Translations under genes and position numbers: made by a program
IMG/VR virus record: IMGVR_UViG_3300012928_000035
Span: 1 to 25,815 of that record
Reading direction: 5' to 3' (one strand)
Origin: a virus
DNA length: 25,815 nucleotides
Part shown: piece by piece, positions 3,321-18,700 of the stretch
Layout: each line of letters opens with the position of its first letter
Numbering within the stretch: position 1 is the first letter of the stretch
Notes under the pieces: model-generated
The model's input: only the letters and a program-made list of their open reading frames with translations
What the model was told of the DNA's origin: nothing
Database searches by the model: none

Positions 3321-3721
3321 TATTGAATCCTCTCTCTACTTATGGGTATCTCAATACTTCCGAGATCTCTCACGAACTCTTCAATAGGTAAATTAAGGGC
3401 TGTTTGCCATTCTTCCATTGCTATATCTAAATATGGAGATTGTACATAGGATTTTATATATTTATGGTAACCCTTAGGAAGTTCTGCTGGATTAGATTCA
3501 TCTATCCACTCCATGATCATTTCTCTTTCATCGGGAGCATAGTAATGTAAGTTTACACCGTAGAATACTGCTCCTTGTGATGCAATAATATAACATAAAG
3601 GATTTCTATCATAATATCTAAGTTTTTCTGCAGTTTTAGCACCATATTGAAATAACATCAAACGACCAGGCGAGGGCGTACCTACAATTTTTGATTTTGG
3701 GAAAGTGTTTCTAAATTCCAA
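3320..3721 (-). CDS. Small conserved phage protein of unknown function, TTG start
   Basis: A 133-aa protein of a type I have the impression of seeing in T4-like phages but cannot name with confidence. Visible pattern: SPGRLMLFQYGAKTAEKLRYYD, then NPLCYIIASQ, FYGVNLHYYAPDEREMIM, and a C-terminal VRDLGSIEIPISRERIQ. The start is a TTG at 3721 inside the last codons of gp4 (11-nt overlap). No in-frame ATG occurs before residue 22, which would cut into the PGRLMLF block, so a non-ATG start is likely. A GGAAAAAG stretch just upstream could serve as a weak ribosome site. It lies in the gp4-gp48-gp53 operon, so a head-completion or baseplate role is possible but unproven. Confidence 0.75.
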   Translation of the reverse strand: MEFRNTFPKSKIVGTPSPGRLMLFQYGAKTAEKLRYYDRNPLCYIIASQGAVFYGVNLHYYAPDEREMIMEWIDESNPAELPKGYHKYIKSYVQSPYLDIAMEEWQTALNLPIEEFVRDLGSIEIPISRERIQ

Positions 3722-4145
3722 GTTCTTTTTCCGTTAGTATCTGAAACTTCCATCTTCTATCTTTACAAAATTCTTTTGCTGCCTCCCATTTTGCATTGTT
3801 TACCGCATATTTCATCACTTCAGTAACATATTTTTTAGTTCTTGTTTTTTGTATTTTTGGTTCTTTTACTTCTTTAGCAGGTTTGACTTCAATTAACTTT
3901 TCAAGTATTTTTCCTCTTACATCTTTGTACTTGACATAAAAATCTGGAAAATATCTATGTGGTCTATTGTCGATTGGTGATCTGTATGGTATTATTATTT
4001 CCTCCGATGACCATGTTATGATGTTTTTGTTATTGTCGCAATAATTCATGAATTTTAGTTCCCAAAGTGATCTGTAAACAATATCACTTGAGTTGCCCTT
4101 ATATTTTTTACGATTCTTTGGTCTAAACTTGCCTTTATATGACAT
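3711..4145 (-). CDS. 4: gp4 head completion protein with PD-(D/E)XK nuclease motif
   Basis: Homologue of T4 gp4 (also called gp50), needed to finish the DNA-filled head before tail joining. MSYKGKFRPKNRKKYKG, IVYRSLWELKFMNYCD, WSSEEIIIPYRSP and HRYFPDFYVK match the family. The arrangement E29 (in LWELKF), D68 (in FPDFYV) and E86-V-K88 (LIEVKP) is an intact PD-(D/E)XK active-site pattern like that of TnsA-type endonucleases, so nuclease activity is plausible. The frame is open upstream to 4232, but the ATG at 4145 gives the family N-terminus and 144 aa, close to T4 (150). It is the first gene of the leftward operon and faces the gp54-like gene across a 38-bp gap. Confidence 0.9.
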   Translation of the reverse strand: MSYKGKFRPKNRKKYKGNSSDIVYRSLWELKFMNYCDNNKNIITWSSEEIIIPYRSPIDNRPHRYFPDFYVKYKDVRGKILEKLIEVKPAKEVKEPKIQKTRTKKYVTEVMKYAVNNAKWEAAKEFCKDRRWKFQILTEKELGI

Positions 4146-4183
4146 ACATAGTATATAACTAAGCACTTTATATTTAGAGAGGT

Positions 4184-4909
4184 ATGGGATTACTAGCAGA
4201 TGCCGTAAGTACAAGAAGATTTTATTTACCAACTACAGAATTATACGAAAGTGGATCGAAGTTTGGTAGTAATGTCCCTGCCTTCAACAATATTTACGAT
4301 GTGTTTATAAATTTTAGTGCGAGTCCAAAATTATCTAATTATGTTGAACAACATAATTTGCACTATAATCAAGAGACAGTAGGATCTTCCCTTGCTTTGT
4401 ATTGTTCTGAAGCACTCTTGCCTGGTTCAAATATTCAAACATCAACAGTTGATGGTATAAGACAGGGTATGTCTCAACATTATGCTACATTTAGGAGGTT
4501 TCCTGATATTACACTTACTTGGTATACTCAGCAAAACTATATGACAAATGATGTATTCAATGCTTGGATGGAATTTATCTCTCCAAATAAAGTTCAAGAT
4601 AGATTGAACTCTTTCAGAAAAATGACATATCCTGAATTTTATAAAATTCCCATGGAAATAACTGCATTTAGTAAGGATGTAATAGGACCTCCTGATAGAT
4701 TGACAAAAGATCCAGATGTAAGGACACCTAGTAGCATAACTTATAAAATCGAGCAAGCATTTCCCACTTCCATAATAGCAGCACCATTAAGATATGGTAA
4801 AGCAGAACTAATAAAAACATCAGTTACCTTTAAGTACGAAAATTACACTATTCTACGAACTTCTAGAACAGGAGAAATTAAATCAAGTAGACCCACCGTA
4901 GCACTATAA
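4184..4909 (+). CDS. 54: gp54-like baseplate/tail-tube initiator
   Basis: A 241-aa protein with a tail-tube-like pattern: NNIYDVFINFSASPKL near the N-terminus, YCSEALLPGSNI, then a central RFPDITLTWYTQQNYMTND followed by VFNAWMEFISP, and a final AELIKTSVTFKYENYTI strand. This matches the gp54/gp19 class, which extends the hub and starts tube polymerisation. Its position directly before gp26 and opposite gp48 supports the gp54 call; T4 gp54 is longer (320 aa). AGAGAGGT sits immediately before the ATG, closer than an ideal Shine-Dalgarno site. The stop codon lies inside the late promoter of the next gene. A tube-related protein other than gp54 remains possible. Confidence 0.65.
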   Translation: MGLLADAVSTRRFYLPTTELYESGSKFGSNVPAFNNIYDVFINFSASPKLSNYVEQHNLHYNQETVGSSLALYCSEALLPGSNIQTSTVDGIRQGMSQHYATFRRFPDITLTWYTQQNYMTNDVFNAWMEFISPNKVQDRLNSFRKMTYPEFYKIPMEITAFSKDVIGPPDRLTKDPDVRTPSSITYKIEQAFPTSIIAAPLRYGKAELIKTSVTFKYENYTILRTSRTGEIKSSRPTVAL

Positions 4910-4912
4910 ATA
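4905..4912 (+). promoter_or_regulatory. T4-type late promoter (TATAAATA) before gp26
   Basis: Exact match to the T4 late -10 consensus in the 24-nt gap before gp26. The TAA stop of the upstream gene (4907-4909) is part of the element. Predicted transcription would start about 15 nt before the gp26 ATG. Confidence 0.75.
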
Positions 4913-7705: not shown

Positions 7706-9676
7706 ATGGACTTAACACCGATAGTAACAAAAAATAAAAGAACCTCTAATGCTTTACTAAGAGATATAAGTAGAAGATCTTCTCTCAATAGAACGTATGA
7801 GAAGAAAACTTTAGAGTTATTAAAGAAATCAATAGAGCAAAGAAATAAAACATATAATGCTTTATCAAAGAGAGATAAGGAGGGTGGTGGAATATTAGGT
7901 AATCTTCTTGGAGGTTCACTACTTCTAAGAAGATTTAGGGGTCGTGGAGGTCGTGGTTTTGGTCAAGGTGGTATCGGACGTAGAGGTATTCCACCTAAAA
8001 CACCTAGAGGTGGTGGCACAATAGGTGGCGGTGTTGGTAGATTTGGTAGATTTGGTAGAATCGGACCGTTAGCAATATTAGGCACAGGATTAGATTTTGC
8101 AGGTAGAATAGGTAGTGGACAGAATTTAGCACAAGCAACTATTGGTGCTGGTGGAGGACTAGCAGGTGCTCTTGCTGGTGGAAAAATTGGTGCTGCAATA
8201 GGTACAGCAATATTGCCAGGTGTGGGAACTATTGCTGGTGGATTGCTTGGTAGTGGTATAGGTGCTGTTACAGGTGGTAATATAGCAGATACACTCACAG
8301 GATTAGGTTCTGATACAAGAAGACAATTACAAACAACTATCCAAAAAAGGAGAGGAGATAAGACTTTATTCTCAGGTGCATTAGATCAATTTGATGGCAC
8401 CTTAAGAACTTTAGAGGAAGATACTGCACCTACCTTGATGACATTCAAGAAGTTTGGTAGGTCTGATGATGATGGTGGTGGTGGTCCTATGGGTGTAGGA
8501 CGTTTTCCTACAACTGCACCTACACAACCATTCTTTACTGCTGGTAGAATTGCTGATATTGTTTTTCTAACTTTAGAATTAGGATTACTTGCTGGTGCAA
8601 TTGTTTTTCCTGGTGATGCAGTTGCTGGAGATGTCGCTGCTGCAGGACTTGTAGCAAGGAGACTTGCTAAACTTAGATTATTAAGAAAATCATCAAAATT
8701 TCTTGATTTTTCTAAGAGAGCATCTGAAATAACAAAAAAAACTAAACAGATAGAAAATGCTCGTATTCTATTCAAGAGAAACTTAAAGACAAGAATATTC
8801 AGACAAAGATCGATAAGTAAAAACTCTAAAATGAATAAATTTTTTAGAGATACACCTGATATAATATTTGATTCTAATTTACCTGCTGTGTCTAGAGGAG
8901 GAAGGGTCAGAAGACAGGGTGCTAACGAATTATTACAGACAAGAATTGATAATGTATTGGATTCTATACGCACTCCAAAATCCAAACTCAAAAAAGTGGA
9001 ACAACTAGATCTTTTAGATGATTTGCTTGGAAACGCTGCAATGCGAGATAGATTGGGAGCGTTGGGTGATGCCTCAAGACCAGATAAATTAGTTAGGGAA
9101 GCACTAAAAACTGGTAAAATAGAAAGTGCAGCTCAACGAGATGCAGTGGAGGCATTTTTTGATTTTTTCTCAGATAATTATATTACAAAAAGTGGTGCTT
9201 CCTCTACTAGACAAATCAAGAAATTATCTGTATCTCCAGTTGGTAAATTACTTAATAGATATAAAAATTTGCAACAGAAATCAAGAATTAATAAAAAGAG
9301 GATTCCTAGAGAAAATATCGAAGAGTTACTTAAAAAATCAGATGATATTCCTGATGAACTTATAGACCTGAATATGCCGTTGTCGATTCCGTCATCTGTT
9401 AAAATACCTGGATTAGCAGAAGGTGGTAGAGTTGAGGCAGGTACACCATACTTTGTTGGTGAGGTAGGAAAGGAATTATTTGTGCCTGATGTGAGTGGTG
9501 ACATTGTGCCTAATGATGACTTAGGACCAGCGATAATTGCCATGACTAGAGATCCTGATACTATCATAAAATCATCAGGTGGTGGGGATAGTTCTAATCG
9601 CACTGTTGTTGTGCCAGCAAGTTCATACGATGTTGTCGCTAAATATGCACAGATGACGGGATTGTTTACGGTATAA
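7706..9676 (+). CDS. Tail tape measure protein (gp29 position)
   Basis: A 656-aa protein starting directly after the preceding stop (TAAATG). It has a basic, helical N-terminus, Gly/Arg-rich segments (about 70-125), and Gly/Ala hydrophobic stretches (about 125-200 and 280-315) with the alternating G-x-x-x-G style of tape measures. Helical Lys/Arg-rich regions follow. Near the C-terminus (about 571-603) is the widespread tape-measure motif EGGRVEAGTPYFVGEVG followed by KELFVPDVSG and IVPND. This motif and the location between gp26/gp51 and gp27 make it the best candidate for the functional equivalent of T4 gp29 (590 aa), which sets tail length and passes through the hub. Its ending overlaps gp27 (TAATG). 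Division of labour with the preceding transglycosylase protein is unknown. Confidence 0.7.
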   Translation: MDLTPIVTKNKRTSNALLRDISRRSSLNRTYEKKTLELLKKSIEQRNKTYNALSKRDKEGGGILGNLLGGSLLLRRFRGRGGRGFGQGGIGRRGIPPKTPRGGGTIGGGVGRFGRFGRIGPLAILGTGLDFAGRIGSGQNLAQATIGAGGGLAGALAGGKIGAAIGTAILPGVGTIAGGLLGSGIGAVTGGNIADTLTGLGSDTRRQLQTTIQKRRGDKTLFSGALDQFDGTLRTLEEDTAPTLMTFKKFGRSDDDGGGGPMGVGRFPTTAPTQPFFTAGRIADIVFLTLELGLLAGAIVFPGDAVAGDVAAAGLVARRLAKLRLLRKSSKFLDFSKRASEITKKTKQIENARILFKRNLKTRIFRQRSISKNSKMNKFFRDTPDIIFDSNLPAVSRGGRVRRQGANELLQTRIDNVLDSIRTPKSKLKKVEQLDLLDDLLGNAAMRDRLGALGDASRPDKLVREALKTGKIESAAQRDAVEAFFDFFSDNYITKSGASSTRQIKKLSVSPVGKLLNRYKNLQQKSRINKKRIPRENIEELLKKSDDIPDELIDLNMPLSIPSSVKIPGLAEGGRVEAGTPYFVGEVGKELFVPDVSGDIVPNDDLGPAIIAMTRDPDTIIKSSGGGDSSNRTVVVPASSYDVVAKYAQMTGLFTV

Positions 9677-10959
9677 TGGCAAAAAAGTACCTATGGTCTA
9701 CTGGTCATATCATAAAAAGATTTGATGTAATACCTGCAGGAGGTGGTCAACCCACCAATTTGATGGGACAAGTTGCTGGAATAAAATATTACGAGGATGT
9801 TATTGATTCAAGTATCCATGTTGAGATATTTTGTTATGATACTTATGGATTTCTAAATGAACTTCCAATTAGAAGTGGGATGACAGTGCACCTAGCTGTA
9901 GAGCATCCTAGTCAAGAGGAACAATTTAGATGGGATGAAGATACAGAACCATTAGTCATAACCAATATATCATCTAACACATCAGATACCAAAAGAGAAT
10001 TATTTTCACTAACTCTTGCAACAAAACATGCAGTATCAAATCACACAACAAGAGTTTGGGAGAAATATACAGGTAAGATATCAGATATTGTAAAAAAAAT
10101 TTTGAAAGATAAGTTAGAGATAACGGAGAGAATGGATGTGCATGATACGAAAAACGAAACTGAGTTTACGGGTAATTATAGAAGACCTCTTTTTATGATA
10201 GGTAATTTGTGTGCTAAATCAATTCCGTCTACATCAGATGGAGATAAACCATCAAAAGGGAGTTCTGGATACTTATTTTTTGAGACACAAGATGGATACA
10301 ATTTCCATAGTATTGATAAAATATTTGATGATGCTGAAAAGGAAGATAATATAAAGTATGTACTACCAGCAGAGAAAAGCACATTAGATCCAAACAACAA
10401 CTTTTATTTTGTGTCAGCACCCAGATGGGTAGAAAGTCATGATCTGCTGAAAAAATTGAGAACAGGGGCATACAGGGCAGCAAATTATTACTATAATATA
10501 CAGACGAGAGAACCAATTTTTTCTGAATATAGTTTGACAGAAAGTCTCAGGAAATACCTGAAACTATCAAACGATGAAGAAAATATTCCAGCAGTATATT
10601 CTGAATTTTATTCAAGAATAACTTTTGGAATCCTTGATAATGCAACCATGACACCTCCTGTGGAAGGTCAGGATGCAGAAACTCCGCAAGATCAAGCTAA
10701 TTTTCAAGCACAATCGAGTGCTAGGTATTCGGCATTATTTTCTCAAATGTTGAATATTAGTGTCCCTATGAACTTGAGTCTAAGGGCAGGTCAAGTTATT
10801 TTCTGTGAGTTTCCTAAGCTAAATATTGAGAAACCAACGAGAAAAGGTAAAAACCCTGCCTCTGGTCTTTATATGATAGCAAGATTGGCACATGAGTTTG
10901 GTGATAAATCATACACTGGACTCACCCTCGTTAGAGATTCATTCCAAACAAACGAATAA
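9676..10959 (+). CDS. 27: gp27-like baseplate hub protein
   Basis: A 427-aa protein matching the gp27 hub pattern (T4 391 aa), the trimeric ring that connects the gp5 spike with the tube. Seen are an N-terminal strand-rich domain (GQVAGIKYYEDVIDSSIHVE, IFCYDTYGFLNELPI, SGMTVHLAVEHP), a mid region SGYLFFETQDGYNFHSIDKIF, and a C-terminal domain with NISVPMNLSLRAGQVIFCEFP and SGLYMIARLAHEFGDKSYT, typical of hub proteins including the gpD/gp44 class. It lies before gp5 as in related hubs, although a small CP12 gene is placed between them. Start overlaps the preceding stop (TAATG). Confidence 0.82.
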   Translation: MAKKYLWSTGHIIKRFDVIPAGGGQPTNLMGQVAGIKYYEDVIDSSIHVEIFCYDTYGFLNELPIRSGMTVHLAVEHPSQEEQFRWDEDTEPLVITNISSNTSDTKRELFSLTLATKHAVSNHTTRVWEKYTGKISDIVKKILKDKLEITERMDVHDTKNETEFTGNYRRPLFMIGNLCAKSIPSTSDGDKPSKGSSGYLFFETQDGYNFHSIDKIFDDAEKEDNIKYVLPAEKSTLDPNNNFYFVSAPRWVESHDLLKKLRTGAYRAANYYYNIQTREPIFSEYSLTESLRKYLKLSNDEENIPAVYSEFYSRITFGILDNATMTPPVEGQDAETPQDQANFQAQSSARYSALFSQMLNISVPMNLSLRAGQVIFCEFPKLNIEKPTRKGKNPASGLYMIARLAHEFGDKSYTGLTLVRDSFQTNE

Positions 10960-10960
10960 C

Positions 10961-11188
10961 ATGAAAACAATCGAAGATCACATCGCAAAGGACAAAGAGA
11001 TTCTAAAAGATCCAACAATCTCTGAACCCACAAGACATCATATAGAAGATGAGTTGCACGACTTAGAGGAGTATGCAGAGCATCACAAAGATGAAATTGC
11101 AGCAGGTGATCATCACGATCCCAATGTATTAGAGGTATTTTGTGACGTTCACCCAGACGAACCAGAATGCCTAGTTTATGATGACTAA
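10961..11188 (+). CDS. cp12: CP12, Calvin cycle regulator (host-derived metabolic gene)
   Basis: A 75-aa acidic, His-rich protein whose C-terminus, VFCDVHPDEPECLVYDD (C61 and C70, eight residues apart), is the diagnostic CP12 ending. CP12 is a redox-controlled, partly disordered protein that locks GAPDH and phosphoribulokinase into an inactive complex, slowing carbon fixation. Cyanophages are known to carry it, probably to divert carbon toward the pentose phosphate pathway during infection. Only the C-terminal Cys pair is present; the N-terminal pair of many plant and some cyanobacterial forms is missing, and the central W-containing AWD-VEEL motif is replaced by EDELHDLEEYAEH. An upstream in-frame start at 10892 would run inside gp27; the ATG at 10961, two bases after the gp27 stop, is right. 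It ends in a TAATG overlap with gp5. Confidence 0.88.
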   Translation: MKTIEDHIAKDKEILKDPTISEPTRHHIEDELHDLEEYAEHHKDEIAAGDHHDPNVLEVFCDVHPDEPECLVYDD

Positions 11189-13509
11189 TGCTTGAATCTA
11201 GTAAAGTTGGTATAAATTTTGCAGGTAAAGACGGTTTTTACTGGTTCATTGGACAGGTAACCGCAGATTACGCATGGCGTGATAAAAATAATCAAAACGT
11301 AGAATTAGGATATAGAGCAAAAGTAAGAATACTTGGTCATCATCCACCAGAGTCAGCAGCAGAGGGTGGTATTGATGACGAAGATTTACCATGGGCTCAT
11401 TTTCTTCTATCACCTCAGTTCGGTTCTGGACATAATAGAGGTGGTACAAGTTTTGCATTGCAGGGCGGTGAGACTGTTTTTGGATTTTTCTTAGATGGTG
11501 AGGAGGGACAACAACCCGTAGTTCTTGGTTTATTTCATGCAAATTCTTCTATAGAACCACTAAAAACTTGGGAGAAAGTATTATCAGGAAAGAGTTCTGG
11601 ATTTGCCCCTTTCACTGCTGACAAGAGTATAGAACCAAATAAAACGATAGATCTCACCAATGGAGATAAATCAGGTGAGTATGGAGTGATAAACAGTAAT
11701 GATGACTCACTGGGGGGTGAAGGTGACAATGTTAAGAAAGAAGGTGAATCATCGAATCAGTATAATACAAGAACCAAAGAAAATGCAAAAAAACATGGTT
11801 ATAAACCAACAATAAATCAATTTTATAATGACAAAACAGAGACTGTTGAAGTAGCACAAAAATGTATTTCACCTGGCGGTGCAATGGGAGAAGTGGCAAA
11901 AGTTCTCCAAGCTTTTGTTGATGAGGTAAGTGGACTTGAAAAGTTTCAGGACAAGCATATAGACCCCACGCTCAATAGAGTAGTTGACATGGATAAATTG
12001 ATAACAAAAGCATCTAATAAAATTGCTGGTGGATTTTCAGCAACTATTAGAGAAGCAAGGAAAGAGATGTTGAAAGAAGTTGATGATCAAGTTAGTAAGG
12101 CAATTAGTTTTCTAGACCCATCACATCTTATAAAGAATCTAGAAGTAAGAAAACAAACTGATCGAATTTATTGTTTGATAGAGAATGTTATAAATGGTTT
12201 GAAAAATTTTATTGGTGATTTTTTGAAGGGAATGATAGGTAACTTACTTCAGTTTCCACTTTGTGCAGCAGAGCAGTTTCTTGGCGGTCTCATTTCAAGT
12301 ATCACTGATAAAATTCAAGGTTTGATAGGACCTGCAATAAGTTCAATATCAAGCATTGGTGGTGGTATTTCTTTACCACCATTTGGAGACATGATGAGTA
12401 AAGCATTAAAAATTGCTCAGGTAGGTCTTGCTTTACTTGAGTGTGAAGGTAATGAGTGTGAGCCAGAACCATTAGATTGGAAAATAAATGTAGGTGCAGA
12501 TCCTAAAAAGAAATTAGATTTTGGTAGAATGATTAGTCTTGCCAGTGGATTGAGTTCTTTTGGTGGATTGGGAGACGCATCTCAAAATCCATTAGGTGCT
12601 CTTAGTGGTATGTTTCCTGGCATTGATAATATTACTGGAGCAATTAGTCAAGTACAAGGAGTTGCAGGTACAGTATCTACATTGACAGGTGGTTTATCAG
12701 GTGGTGTACCTGGTGGCATGAAGAGTTTGGTTGGTGGATGTGATCCATTTACTAAAAACTGTGGATCACCTAAAGTTTCAATTTTTGGTGGTGGAGGTTC
12801 TGGTGCAGTAGGAAAAGCTGTTATAAACTCCATAGGAAAAGTTATTGGGGTCAACATGTCTAGTTTTGGATCTGGTTTCACATCACCTCCATTTGTTACT
12901 ATTACTGATAATTGTGATAATGGTAAGGGTGCTACTGCAACTGCTGATGTTGACCTAGATGAAAATTCTCCTACTTTTGGTCAAATAACAGATATTATCA
13001 TAACAAATCCTGGTGGGGGATATGTAGGACCAGGTGTCATCGACACTATAATAGATGTTGAAACTGGTGAGGAAACAACTGTTCCCACTGGCACAACAAC
13101 TTTACCTGATGGAACTGTAGTTCCCATAGGAGATATAGGAACAGACATAGGAACAGACATAGGAACAGGGACATCGGATGATGATGGTATTGATGTTATA
13201 GGTGAGATTGGTGGAGTTCAAATAGTAACACCTGGTATTGGATATCAACCAGGCGATACAATTACCACACCTAGTGGGGGTGTGATAATTCCCATACTCG
13301 ATGATAAGGGTAGAATTTTAGGATCTGATCCTAATACAAAAGTTGATGTTGGTTTAGTTGACTTACCTAAACTCACCATTAACACAAGCACAGGGTTTGG
13401 TGCTATAATAAGACCGATCACTAAGTTTACTAAGGTTCAGGATTATGAAGATCCAATTGTTCCAGACGCTAAACTTATTAGAGTTATTGATTGTCCTAGA
13501 GGTTTCTAA
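11188..13509 (+). CDS. 5: gp5-like baseplate hub/spike protein without lysozyme domain
   Basis: A 773-aa protein. Residues about 13-115 form the gp5/VgrG-type OB fold: FYWFIGQVTADYAWRDKNN, LGYRAKVRILGHHP, LPWAHFLLSPQFGSG and ETVFGFFLDGEEGQQPVVLG. No T4-lysozyme domain is seen after it. Instead there is a long helical region (about 205-400), Gly-rich hydrophobic stretches, Cys-containing segments (LLECEGNECEPEP, GGCDPFTKNCGSP), and a C-terminal region of GSGY-type repeats (about 558-620 and 675-690) with a short GTDI repeat (about 650-660). The next gene supplies a spike-like beta-helix, so T4 gp5 functions appear spread over separate genes. The hub assignment rests on the OB fold and the position after gp27. 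Confidence 0.78.
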   Translation: MLESSKVGINFAGKDGFYWFIGQVTADYAWRDKNNQNVELGYRAKVRILGHHPPESAAEGGIDDEDLPWAHFLLSPQFGSGHNRGGTSFALQGGETVFGFFLDGEEGQQPVVLGLFHANSSIEPLKTWEKVLSGKSSGFAPFTADKSIEPNKTIDLTNGDKSGEYGVINSNDDSLGGEGDNVKKEGESSNQYNTRTKENAKKHGYKPTINQFYNDKTETVEVAQKCISPGGAMGEVAKVLQAFVDEVSGLEKFQDKHIDPTLNRVVDMDKLITKASNKIAGGFSATIREARKEMLKEVDDQVSKAISFLDPSHLIKNLEVRKQTDRIYCLIENVINGLKNFIGDFLKGMIGNLLQFPLCAAEQFLGGLISSITDKIQGLIGPAISSISSIGGGISLPPFGDMMSKALKIAQVGLALLECEGNECEPEPLDWKINVGADPKKKLDFGRMISLASGLSSFGGLGDASQNPLGALSGMFPGIDNITGAISQVQGVAGTVSTLTGGLSGGVPGGMKSLVGGCDPFTKNCGSPKVSIFGGGGSGAVGKAVINSIGKVIGVNMSSFGSGFTSPPFVTITDNCDNGKGATATADVDLDENSPTFGQITDIIITNPGGGYVGPGVIDTIIDVETGEETTVPTGTTTLPDGTVVPIGDIGTDIGTDIGTGTSDDDGIDVIGEIGGVQIVTPGIGYQPGDTITTPSGGVIIPILDDKGRILGSDPNTKVDVGLVDLPKLTINTSTGFGAIIRPITKFTKVQDYEDPIVPDAKLIRVIDCPRGF
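13135..13170 (+). repeat. Short 12-bp tandem repeat inside gp5
   Basis: Three consecutive copies of ATAGGAACAGAC (last ends CAGGG) encode the IGTD repeat. It is in frame and lies in a low-complexity linker between GSGY-type modules. Confidence 0.8.
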
Positions 13510-14063
13510 TGGCGAATGTACCACCAATTATAATTCAACATCCTGAAGATGGTGTGTTCACTATTGGAAGAGAAAGAAGAGATGATGTAAGAAGAATAAA
13601 GGATATTGGATTACATGGATCATCTAGTGCAGGTATGCGTATTTTTCATGATGGAGGATTTGAACTAAGATCAAGTGATGATGCTACTGCCATACAGGGA
13701 TCACAGATAATTCAAAAATGTGATGGAGCACCTTTGATTTTAAAATCTGCAGGGGATATACTTATTGAATGTGATGGTAGATTTTCTGTCGTAGCAAATG
13801 ACATAAGAATGTCAGCAAAAAATGCTGATGAGGGTGATATCACACTCAAAGCAAAACACGATATAAACATTGATGCAGACAATCGTATCATTGCTCAGTC
13901 AGAGAATGTTGTGCTAAGTGCAAAAGATAAGGTTCTTTCTTTTTCTAAAGGATGGAACGTTATGGTTGGAAATGTTGTTCGTATTCATGAACCAACATCT
14001 CAATTGATACCACCTGTACTGGGTGATTATCTTGATTCTCAAACTAAAACACTGAAAAACTAA
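13509..14063 (+). CDS. Beta-helical spike-like baseplate protein
   Basis: A 184-aa protein whose middle (about 75-150) is a run of short strands with a regular period: APLILKSAGDILIECDGRF, SVVANDIRMSAKNA, GDITLKAKHDINIDADNRI, IAQSENVVLSAKDKVL. This resembles the C-terminal triple-stranded beta-helix of T4 gp5 and VgrG needles. Since the gp5-like protein upstream has the OB fold but no such needle, this may be the separate spike needle. The N-terminus (PPIIIQHPEDGVFTIGRE) is unlike T4 gp5. It is joined to both neighbours by TAATG overlaps. The spike role is inferred from repeats and position. Confidence 0.6.
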   Translation: MANVPPIIIQHPEDGVFTIGRERRDDVRRIKDIGLHGSSSAGMRIFHDGGFELRSSDDATAIQGSQIIQKCDGAPLILKSAGDILIECDGRFSVVANDIRMSAKNADEGDITLKAKHDINIDADNRIIAQSENVVLSAKDKVLSFSKGWNVMVGNVVRIHEPTSQLIPPVLGDYLDSQTKTLKN

Positions 14064-14872
14064 TGGCTGGATTTAGAGACATAGAATCTGGTAAAATCTA
14101 CATTGGTGTAGAGGAACCAGCAAAATTAGATCAGGCAGTTGAAACCCTGAATGGCGATAAACCTTACGATGGAACTCTAGTCGCTACTGGACCTTCATTT
14201 TTAGGTGCTCATAAAGGTGGTTTTGCAAAAGCAACTTTGAATGTAGGGACTGCACTTGGAGATTGGAGTCCTGGTGTAAGTGGTAGAGCAGTTCAAGTAG
14301 AAGGTGATGTTGAAGTAATCGGTGAAGAAGCAACAAATGCAGTTTATATTGATGGTGATGTTTTTGTCACAGGTGCTGTTGATTGCTTGAATAAGGGTAG
14401 ACTTGCTTCAAGATTTGGAACTGCTGATTCACTTGGTAAGTCTTTTGATATTAAACACCCCACTAAAGAGGGATATAGACTGAGATATGCATGTATTGAA
14501 GGTCCAGAGGTAGCAATATATCACAGAGGTAGATTAAAAGATTCTAATACGATTGAATTACCAGATTACTGGAAGAATATGGTGTATGAAGATAGTATTT
14601 CAGTGCAGATTACACCTATCGGTAAGCAAGAAGACATTTATGTCAAGTCATTTGATAGTGAGAAAATTGTGTTAGAATCTGATTCAGACATTGATTGTTT
14701 CTATCATGTATATGGTGAGAGAAATGATATAAACCCACTTATTGTAGAGTATGAAGGTGAGACATGGGAAGATTATCCTGACCCCAACCTCAAACTTGAT
14801 CCCTCTGATAAAGATAGAAATATTAAGGATCCTAATTATGATACTGGACAAAATACAAAAACTGTGGTATAG
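14063..14872 (+). CDS. Fibre/baseplate structural protein with IELP-TPIG domain
   Basis: A 269-aa protein. Its N-terminal half contains short beta turns such as VQVEGDVEVIGEEATNAVYI and DGDVFVTGAVDCLN, suggesting a beta-helical shaft. Then comes KSFDIKHPTKEGYRLRYACI with EGPEVAIYHRGR, a signature found in fibre-type proteins of marine T4-like phages, followed by a small domain (about 155-222: IELPDYWKN, SVQITPIG, DIYVKS, CFYHVYGERND). The C-terminal tail is polar and Asp-rich. The small domain is duplicated as the next gene. It is the last gene joined by a TAATG overlap to the hub operon. I judge it a virion protein near the baseplate, exact part unknown. Confidence 0.6.
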   Translation: MAGFRDIESGKIYIGVEEPAKLDQAVETLNGDKPYDGTLVATGPSFLGAHKGGFAKATLNVGTALGDWSPGVSGRAVQVEGDVEVIGEEATNAVYIDGDVFVTGAVDCLNKGRLASRFGTADSLGKSFDIKHPTKEGYRLRYACIEGPEVAIYHRGRLKDSNTIELPDYWKNMVYEDSISVQITPIGKQEDIYVKSFDSEKIVLESDSDIDCFYHVYGERNDINPLIVEYEGETWEDYPDPNLKLDPSDKDRNIKDPNYDTGQNTKTVV

Positions 14873-15725: not shown

Positions 15726-15733
15726 TATAAATA
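15726..15733 (+). promoter_or_regulatory. T4-type late promoter (TATAAATA) before the 1893-aa fibre gene
   Basis: Exact TATAAATA, in the 45-nt gap after the membrane-protein gene. An AGGA about ten bases before the ATG could be the ribosome site. Confidence 0.78.
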
Positions 15734-15765: not shown

Positions 15766-18700
15766 ATGCCACTAAGCAGACTTGAAAATTTTCTAAAAAA
15801 TGTTCAGGGTAACGTTATATACGTGAACCCTGAGGAACTTGATGCAACGGATGATATCAGCAATACTGGTAATTCTAGAACTCGTCCGTTCAAAACTATA
15901 CAAAGAGCACTCATAGAGTCTGCGAGATTCTCATATCAATTAGGGAAAGATAACGATAAGTTTGACAAGACAACTATACTAGTATCGCCTGGTGTACACT
16001 ATATTGATAATAGACCAGGTTACCAAATTGACAGCGATGGAAATATAACTGATGTTAATGGAACTTCTCAAAGTATAACTGAATTTGGTATTGGTACTAA
16101 TTTTGATGTACAGAATGTAGATAACGTATTATATCATTACAACTCTATTCATGGTGGTGTAATCTTACCAAGAGGTACATCCATTGTTGGTCAAGATATA
16201 AGAAAAACTAAAATAAGACCAAAATATATTCCAGATCCCCTCAATGACAGTATACCAAGTTCTGCTATCTTTAGAGTAACAGGAGCTTGCTTTTTTTATG
16301 GATTTAGTATTTTTGATGGAGAGGGTTCTGATAGAACATTCAAAGATTTTACTGAAAATGTTTACGCACCTAATTTCTCACACCATAAACTAACCTGCTT
16401 TGAATATGCTGATGGTAACAACACTGTAGCAGGTAAGGGTAATACCGACCTTGACATGTATTATGCTAAACTAACTTTAGCATATGGTACGAACAGTGGT
16501 AGAGCACTTCCATCATATCCTACTAACGACGACTTTGAGAAACTCATAGATGAGAACAGGATAGTTGGTGCTATATCAGAATTAGGTGATGTTGAGATTG
16601 ATGACATATACTCAGGAATAGACCCATCATCTTCTACACCAACATCTATTGTTACAGTAAAAACTAAAACTACACATAGACTTGCGGTAGGAACACCTAT
16701 TTTAGTATTTGGTGTAAACAATTCTGAATATGATGGCAGTCATGTTGTATCACAAGTGGTTAATGATACTCAGTTCAGCTACACTGTTGCAAACACACCG
16801 ACAAGCACAGCGACTCCAAGTCTTAGTGGACTTACTCCTGTAGTAACAATAGAGAGTGACACCGTAACATCATCTTCACCTTACATATTCAACTGCTCTA
16901 TCCGATCAGTCTTTGGATTATGTGGTCTGCATTGTGATGGAGACAAGGCAACTGGTTTCAAATCCATGTTGGTTGCTCAGTTTACTGGAATATCTTTACA
17001 GAAAGACGACAACGCATTTGTAAAATACAACACTACATCTGGTGCTTGGGAGGATCAAGCAACATTAGGAACTACAACAACACTACACACTGACAGTTTA
17101 GCAAGATATAAACCAAAATTTGAATCCTACCATATAAAAGCATCTAACAATTCTGTGATGCAATTGGTGTCTGTCTTTGCCATTGGGTATGGTCAGCATT
17201 TCAAGGCAGTTGCTGGTGGTGATATGTCAATCACCAACTCTAATTCCAACTTTGGTTCTAAAGCATTGGAATCTGATGGATTTAGAAAAGAGGCATTTAT
17301 TAAGGATGATAAGGCGTTCATAACCAGTATCGTACCACCTAAGAAGAATTTTAGTAATATTGATGATATAAATTGGCAATCTATAGATGTAGAAAAAACT
17401 GTTGGAATATCTACGGATACTAAACTATTCATATTTGGAAATGCACAAAAGGATAAAGTTCCAAATAAAACTGCTAGTGGATTTACTATTGGTAATAAGA
17501 TAAACGATAAGTTATTCTGCACGATAGAAAATACAACTTTTGGTGCTGACATATTGATGCCTGGACCAGGTAGTAACACTGATTTATATGCGTCTGGTAA
17601 AAAAGAAGTATTTGTTGGTAGTAACACTGGTATCAATTCTATTACTAGTAATATCTTTACCTTAGAAGAATCTCATAACTTTTTACCAGGTGAAAATGTA
17701 AAAGTATTCTCTCAGACAGGAGATTTACCAGATGGTATAGAATACAATAGAGATTATTTTGTGATAAGTTCTGGTCTAAATGCAGATCAAATTAAACTTG
17801 CTACGACATTTAACAATGCAATAGCAGGTAGTAGTCTTAGTGGAATAAACAATCTTGGTGGTAAGTTACGAATAGTTTCTACCGTAGAATCTAAAAATCC
17901 TGGTCAACCTGGTCATCCAATGCAGTATGAGGATGGCACTGGTTGGTACATTACCGTTGGTGCTGGCAACTCACTTAGATCTGCGATAGTAACTAATCAG
18001 TCCAAGATTACACCTAGAACTGTCAATACATTTGTTCAAAGAAGTTCCGATGGTAGAAAAGATTTAGAAAAAATTTACAGAGTAAGATACGTAGTCCCTG
18101 ATGATTCATCACTAGCATCACCGCCTACTAATGGATTCTCTATTACTGAGTCTGGATCATTCCCTGATGATGTAAGTTATAAAAATGATTCCACAGTCAT
18201 TTCATCTACAACTAATCTTAGAATTGACAGTGTGATTGTGGATGCTAGTTGGAGTTCTGGTTCTAATGCTGGTATTATAACATCACAATTCCCACATAGA
18301 CTATCTGTAGGACAAGGTGTCGAGATAAGAAGACTTAGAAGTACAAACAATACTGATGGCACTGCAAATAGTGGATACAATGGATTGTTTGATGTTTTAG
18401 CGATAGATGATGCTAGAACATTTAGAATTGGTATAAACACAAATCCAGGTGGTATATCAACTATCACTACAAATGTTCCATACACACTACATGATCAATC
18501 AATAGTTGGTTCAGGTAGAACCTTTGCTCCATTTTTCAATAAACGTGATTTTGGAAGAGCGTATCAAATATACACAAATGAAGAGATACAAGAGTATAAG
18601 AGAAATTTACAGGATGGTGTTTATGATGTAACTTTACTTTCATATCTTGCACAACCCTCAATATCTCCATTCTCAACTGCTTCTAATTTCTTCCCACAGA

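Follow-up and report, generated by a model that had tools for sequence, protein, structure and literature searches.

The stretch of DNA analyzed here, in the following called the window, is a single virus record (IMGVR_UViG_3300012928_000035; 25,815 bases, 37% G+C; L001 among the compared loci), whose genes are ordered as in T4-like cyanophages and which carries the gene cp12 between two genes of the baseplate hub. cp12 (10961..11188, + strand; recognized by sequence and by Pfam family PF02672) encodes a protein of 75 residues. It follows a gp27-type baseplate hub gene (9676..10959, +; T4-GC 15 of cyanophages) and precedes a gp5-type gene for the baseplate hub and tail lysozyme (11188..13509, +), a place that we refer to as the gp27–gp5 slot. 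On the left, the gp27 stop codon TAA (10957-10959) is followed by a single C and then by the ATG of cp12 at 10961, which leaves a gap of 1 nucleotide (nt). On the right, in the sequence TAATG, the last A of the cp12 stop codon TAA (11186-11188) is the first base of the gp5 start codon ATG (11188). A preliminary description of this DNA had given the 75-residue CP12 between gp27 and gp5 and both junctions, TAA-C-ATG and TAATG, correctly, with coordinates that were right within a few bases. Its statement that cp12 has no room for its own promoter or terminator is true of intergenic DNA, while the premise behind it is probably wrong, as a promoter-like motif lies inside gp27. cp12 is not a chance reading frame, since dozens of other contigs repeat its order and junctions. 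The gp27 protein matches PHROG 350 ("tail protein"), and its structure model, for which a 13-sequence alignment was the input, has a mean predicted local distance difference test score of 74 and resembles T4 gp27 (1k28_D; Foldseek E-value 1e-15, template modeling scores 0.61/0.70, 9% identity), so that the label gp27 holds. The gp5 protein matches PHROG 1922 ("baseplate hub subunit and tail lysozyme").

Within gp27, at 10818..10825 (+), lies GCTAAATA, a box that is predicted from its conservation to be a promoter of the T4 late type. It lies in codons 382-384 (Leu-Asn-Ile), at 142 nt upstream of the cp12 start codon. The motif that we scored as T4-late type, [AC]TAAATA, corresponds to 10819-10825 of this box, which fits the TATAAATA-like pattern of T4-type late promoters in the CTAAATA form, as in Aeh1. 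In a first set of 48 distinct coupled loci and 15 distinct gapped loci, from which duplicates and short ends had been removed, the motif was found 132-150 nt before the gp27 stop in 39 of the 48 coupled loci. Synonymous shuffling of the codons gave a mean of 9.1 motif-bearing loci, and none of 200 shuffles reached 39, so that the word has a conserved upstream place beyond the constraint imposed by the protein. The last 100 nt of gp27 contained the motif in none of the 48 coupled loci. The nine coupled loci without the motif at the fixed place constitute the L016/L022 group. In L016, L022, L033, and their relatives, cp12 begins 3-7 nt after gp27, and no [AC]TAAATA was found in the stretch examined around cp12, which extended up to 3.6 kb in either direction. 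In the hold-out loci with a window-type gp27, the embedded motif was present in 23 of 24, and the sole miss was a contig that ends 103 nt before cp12. For this comparison, loci without gp27 upstream (16 in the first set, 24 in the hold-out) and duplicates (36 and 11, respectively) were dropped.

The conservation can be traced more finely on a gp27 tree, which was calculated from 168 proteins with the last 80 residues left out. The rows in which the word occupies the same place as in the window all group in one clade. This clade has 31 members, the window among them, none of them lacks the word, and the motif lies within gp27, 128-154 nt upstream of cp12. In the codon alignment of the clade, TAAATA is the most conserved 6-mer (31/31 rows; the next best reaches 25/31). 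At the first residue of the word, 18 of the 31 rows have Leu and 13 have Ile. In the loci with the word at this place, the codons are nevertheless fixed: Leu is always CTA (31/31; 14.5% at other positions of these genes), Ile always ATA (25/25; 48.5% at other positions), and Asn always AAT (56/56; 75.7% at other positions). In the gp27 model, the site is placed in a low-confidence loop between the predicted strands 374-378 and 397-408.

The same word is usually found close to cp12 where a gap exists. In gapped loci, the gp27 stop is the site of the late-type box, 28-42 nt ahead of cp12: in the first set, the motif lies 28-38 nt upstream of cp12 in 15/15 distinct loci, in the hold-out it is found at −28 to −42 in 67/81, and among in-slot isolates it closely precedes cp12 in 11/14. 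All 16 cp12 loci outside the slot have the motif as well. The cp12 of P-HM2, which lies beside talC, has the late-type word CATAAATACT upstream. In several gapped leaders (L043, L051, L062, L066-L068, L077-L080, L084), the region just upstream of cp12 also contains a near-constant TGTACATACTGTACGGAGG, a small hairpin GTAC-ATACT-GTAC immediately before the Shine-Dalgarno sequence. The complete set comprised 254 distinct loci, 186 with cp12 and 68 with an empty slot, of which 178 and 68 had at least 400 nt upstream and were used for class counts. Of the 178 in-slot loci, 81 have the motif near cp12, 54 at the window's place, 19 further inside gp27, at −215 to −275, and 24 in none of these places. 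The class with the more distant word is weaker evidence, because the word sits in a conserved LN-type protein context in 9 of its 19 loci. The motif is also directional, as ATAAATA occurs 284 times in sense and 11 times in antisense orientation in the 254 loci, and CTAAATA 114 and 10 times, whereas other words of equal composition have a sense bias of at most 2.8-fold.

Boxes of the same type can be predicted before neighboring genes of the window. A putative late promoter of the hub operon, TATAAATA, precedes gp26 by 22 nt (4905..4912, +; recognized by its motif), and a predicted gp27 promoter, again GCTAAATA, lies in the 3′ end of the preceding gene, 37 nt before the gp27 ATG (9638..9645, +). 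Where the embedded word stands at the same place as in the window, the motif likewise occurs 34-39 nt upstream of gp27, in 40 of 44 loci. As a comparison site, the next predicted late promoter, TATAAATA, is located 33 nt before a gene for a protein of 1893 residues at 15766 (15726..15733, +). Published late promoters show the same word: NATAAATA is the late motif of S-PM2 (PMC2984593) and CTAAATA the late promoter form of Aeh1 (PMC1524935).

These observations lead us to propose that the window probably contains an ordinary cyanophage CP12 gene at the usual gp27–gp5 site, with a late-type promoter embedded in gp27. The preliminary description had allowed for an unrecognized promoter inside gp27, and it is there that the comparative evidence now points. 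A different explanation is that cp12 has no promoter of its own and is transcribed only as part of longer late hub transcripts that start at the gp26 or gp27 box, with translation coupled to gp27, and that TAAATA reflects protein constraint and common ancestry. We regard this as distinctly less probable. The tight junctions TAA-C-ATG and TAATG and the presence of boxes before gp26 and gp27 agree with such an expression, whereas the fixed codon choice at a position at which the residue changes, the shuffling result (9.1 versus 39/48), and the close box at gapped loci, also outside the slot, do not.

Several of our own results weigh against an embedded promoter and have to be considered here. 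Pro (380) and Asn (383) beside the site are conserved, which means that a part of the word is constrained by the protein. The spacing of 128-154 nt exceeds that at other genes (about 28-47 nt). A Shine-Dalgarno-like sequence precedes cp12 in only 17/56 loci with the embedded motif versus 71/81 loci with a near motif, so that translation of a short transcript may be inefficient; the 39/56 loci without such a sequence, and the conserved Pro and Asn, are points in favor of read-through. The 24/178 in-slot loci without [AC]TAAATA in the three places scored imply that some lineages manage without it, and the strand bias of some unrelated 7-mers equals that of the motif. The last point concerns the control loci without cp12. 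Of 80 loci with a P-SSM2-type gp27, 78 had a complete gp27 end, and gp5 directly followed gp27 wherever both were readable. The word was absent from the last 790 nt of gp27 at all 78 junctions without cp12, and it was not found within 400 nt of gp5 at any of the 68 distinct junctions without cp12. This absence speaks in favor of the embedded promoter, but the slot state changes just twice on the gp27 tree, and the contrast between loci with and without cp12 is therefore confounded by ancestry; a test of slot against motif with independent pairs had only two pairs and was not significant. Among loci that lack the main word, the variants [GT]TAAATA occurred in 3/24 with cp12 and in 13/68 empty ones; they had no fixed place and were rejected.

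As to the promoter type, the embedded motif belongs to the T4 late type and not to an early sigma-70 type, and a scan of the surroundings of cp12 for sigma-70-like sites gave no more than chance would (5 found, 6.7 expected). An early or middle promoter of the host sigma-70 type inside gp27, which would express cp12 ahead of the hub genes, is hence very improbable: none of the 48 coupled loci has TATAAT in the final 200 nt of gp27 (3.2 expected), and we rejected this candidate. Literature data nevertheless favor an earlier expression. In the table of a review, Syn9 cp12 is listed as co-expressed in early infection (PMC6359870), and this gene lies in the gp27–gp5 slot; a late-type word thus need not mean late-only expression. 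P-HM2 cp12, elsewhere in the genome, is assigned to the middle RNA-seq cluster in the respective study (PMC5082946), but it is this very gene that follows the late-type word CATAAATACT.

It is also conceivable, albeit very unlikely in our view, that the conserved word is no promoter at all but another DNA or RNA element, such as an RNA processing site, a regulator binding site, or a recombination site at which CP12 forms are exchanged. Its shortness and AT-richness would suit such a role, as would the exchange of CP12 forms, which has taken place at least seven times within the clade. The same word, however, occurs 28-42 nt before cp12 at gapped loci and 34-39 nt before gp27, and it matches the late promoters published for S-PM2 and Aeh1. 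Three further candidates were rejected: the N-terminally extended CP12 (an open reading frame of 98 codons from 10892) had longer extensions just three times over 31 rows and was taken as chance, a small open reading frame or gp27 fragment served by the word had no start position common to all of the 12 rows compared, and RNA structure in the leader gave a z of −1.1.

In the mechanism that we propose for the embedded promoter, the box inside gp27 would replace the usual box at the gp27 stop in a lineage whose gp27–cp12 gap is closed. RNA polymerase would be directed to it by a late sigma factor of the gp55 type, which we take to be present in this virus group and whose gene is not in this fragment. 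Transcription would then start near 10831 (+), as predicted from the T4 geometry with the box at −13 to −6 (PMC1524935). The resulting short transcript would have a leader of about 130 nt, contain cp12 as first gene, and extend into gp5. Longer transcripts that also carry cp12 would arise by read-through from the gp26 and gp27 boxes, and on these, cp12 would be translated by re-initiation at TAA-C-ATG. The C-terminal tail of CP12 would bind the host GAPDH and thereby dampen the Calvin cycle.

The protein itself scores 45.8 bits against Pfam CP12 PF02672 (cut-off 22.7). Judged by its sequence, it possesses the C-terminal cysteine pair and GAPDH-binding-type tail (CDVHPDEPECLVYDD), and it lacks both the classical AWD_VEE core and the N-terminal cysteine pair. 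The C-x8-C-x2-aromatic tail is present in 186/186 distinct in-slot CP12s, the AWD motif in 0/186, and 184/186 have two cysteines only. Cyanophage CP12s without the N-terminal pair and core have been described (PMC3906501), and because of such exceptions we classify the window protein as a tail-only CP12 and not as a classical one. Tail-only CP12s are expected to act on GAPDH. The nearest relatives by gp27 have a different CP12, form B (~89 residues), in the same slot and with the same junctions, and in this form the Pfam CP12 match is limited to the C-terminal part. From the lengths given in PMC3037559, form B would be T4-GC 63. On the gp27 tree, forms A and B switch at least 14 times overall, at least seven of them within the window clade as mentioned above. 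It is thus the slot that is conserved, while the CP12 that occupies it is variable, with two unlike forms that replace each other repeatedly.

The preliminary description had considered the position of cp12 odd, and this has to be revised. CP12 of the window type is encoded by 362 records of the phage collection, and when the 80 best CP12 loci of viral contigs are taken together, cp12 adjoins gp27 and/or gp5 in 64 and is elsewhere in 16. In 16 of 22 named cyanophage isolates inspected, a set that leaves out the single-cell virus records AG-345-F15 and AG-345-D19 and the methylophage Melnitz-1, cp12 directly follows a gp27-like gene. It is alone between gp27 and gp5 in S-SSM7, S-SM2, ACG-2014e, ACG-2014h, S-CAM4, Sf-FS3, S-CAM9, and S-SCSM1 (8 isolates), and accompanied by further genes in Syn9, S-SM1, P-SSM7, P-TIM40, S-RIM2, ACG-2014b, ACG-2014d, and P-RSM1; in the other six (P-TIM68, P-SSM2, P-HM2, S-SKS1, MED4-213, S-PM2), it is not in the slot. 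Variable positions of talC and cp12, near gp5 included, were already noted in 2010 (Sullivan et al., 2010; PMC3037559). The gp27–gp5 slot is therefore a usual and already known site of cp12 in marine T4-like viruses; what is documented is the position, not the embedded promoter. The slot of P-SSM7 also contains cpeT and pcyA, and that of P-TIM40 cpeT, ndhI, speD, and small genes, so that the slot, as seen in these two phages, takes up host-type genes more widely.

Two observations concern other parts of the window. The divergent genes at 3711-4232 (−) and 4184-4909 (+) have overlapping annotated starts, and their true starts probably lie further in. Residues about 149-228 of the product of 14063-14872 also match the next downstream reading frame, in many loci, and a small tail-associated gene may thus have been duplicated long ago.

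Should the embedded word be a true promoter, it would mean that in marine T4-like viruses a metabolic gene retains control of its own through a fixed DNA word imposed on the gene of a structural protein. Neither such an embedded promoter nor the repeated exchange of CP12 forms was found in print in the one open-access library searched, which is no proof of novelty. The promoter search rule given in PMC3037559 covered intergenic DNA plus 10 nt of the upstream gene, and embedded sites are missed by searches confined in this way. The timing of phage CP12 expression now becomes directly testable, and the slot is marked as a place where two CP12 forms swap again and again. We may even speculate that selection on the slot favors the production of CP12 together with the hub, and that CP12 is made late from the embedded promoter, joins the gp27–gp5 complex or the assembling virion, and acts in the next host before phage expression. 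This idea has very little probability, and the analysis yielded nothing that points to a virion role or a novel function of CP12 and nothing that argues against one, yet it would explain both the recurrent swapping of unlike CP12 forms into one coupled place and a late-type box kept on a gene that is expected to act early.

In comparison with known systems, the cultured cyanomyoviruses with cp12 in the slot have the same gene with the same neighbors as the window, and in S-SM2, cp12 overlaps gp5 by one base exactly as it does here. In most of these slot-bearing phages, cp12 is preceded by a gap of 9-97 nt, with the late-type word usually at the gp27 stop, whereas in the window a single nucleotide separates the two genes and gp27 itself contains the word. 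Coupled cp12 genes with an embedded word are also known from cultured phages, at −40 in S-SCSM1 and at about −240 in S-SSM7 and Sf-FS3, but the class of the window is not represented among the isolates inspected. P-SSM2-type CP12 of form B (89 residues) has the C-terminal C-x8-C tail in common with the window CP12, but in P-SSM2 itself, form B is located elsewhere in the genome and the gp27–gp5 slot is empty. With the T4-type late promoters (TATAAATA; NATAAATA in S-PM2; CTAAATA in Aeh1), the window shares the word and its gene-sense direction, and at the other genes also the usual distance to the start. Unlike those promoters, the copy that we describe lies inside an upstream structural gene, 128-154 nt from the start, and would serve a metabolic gene.

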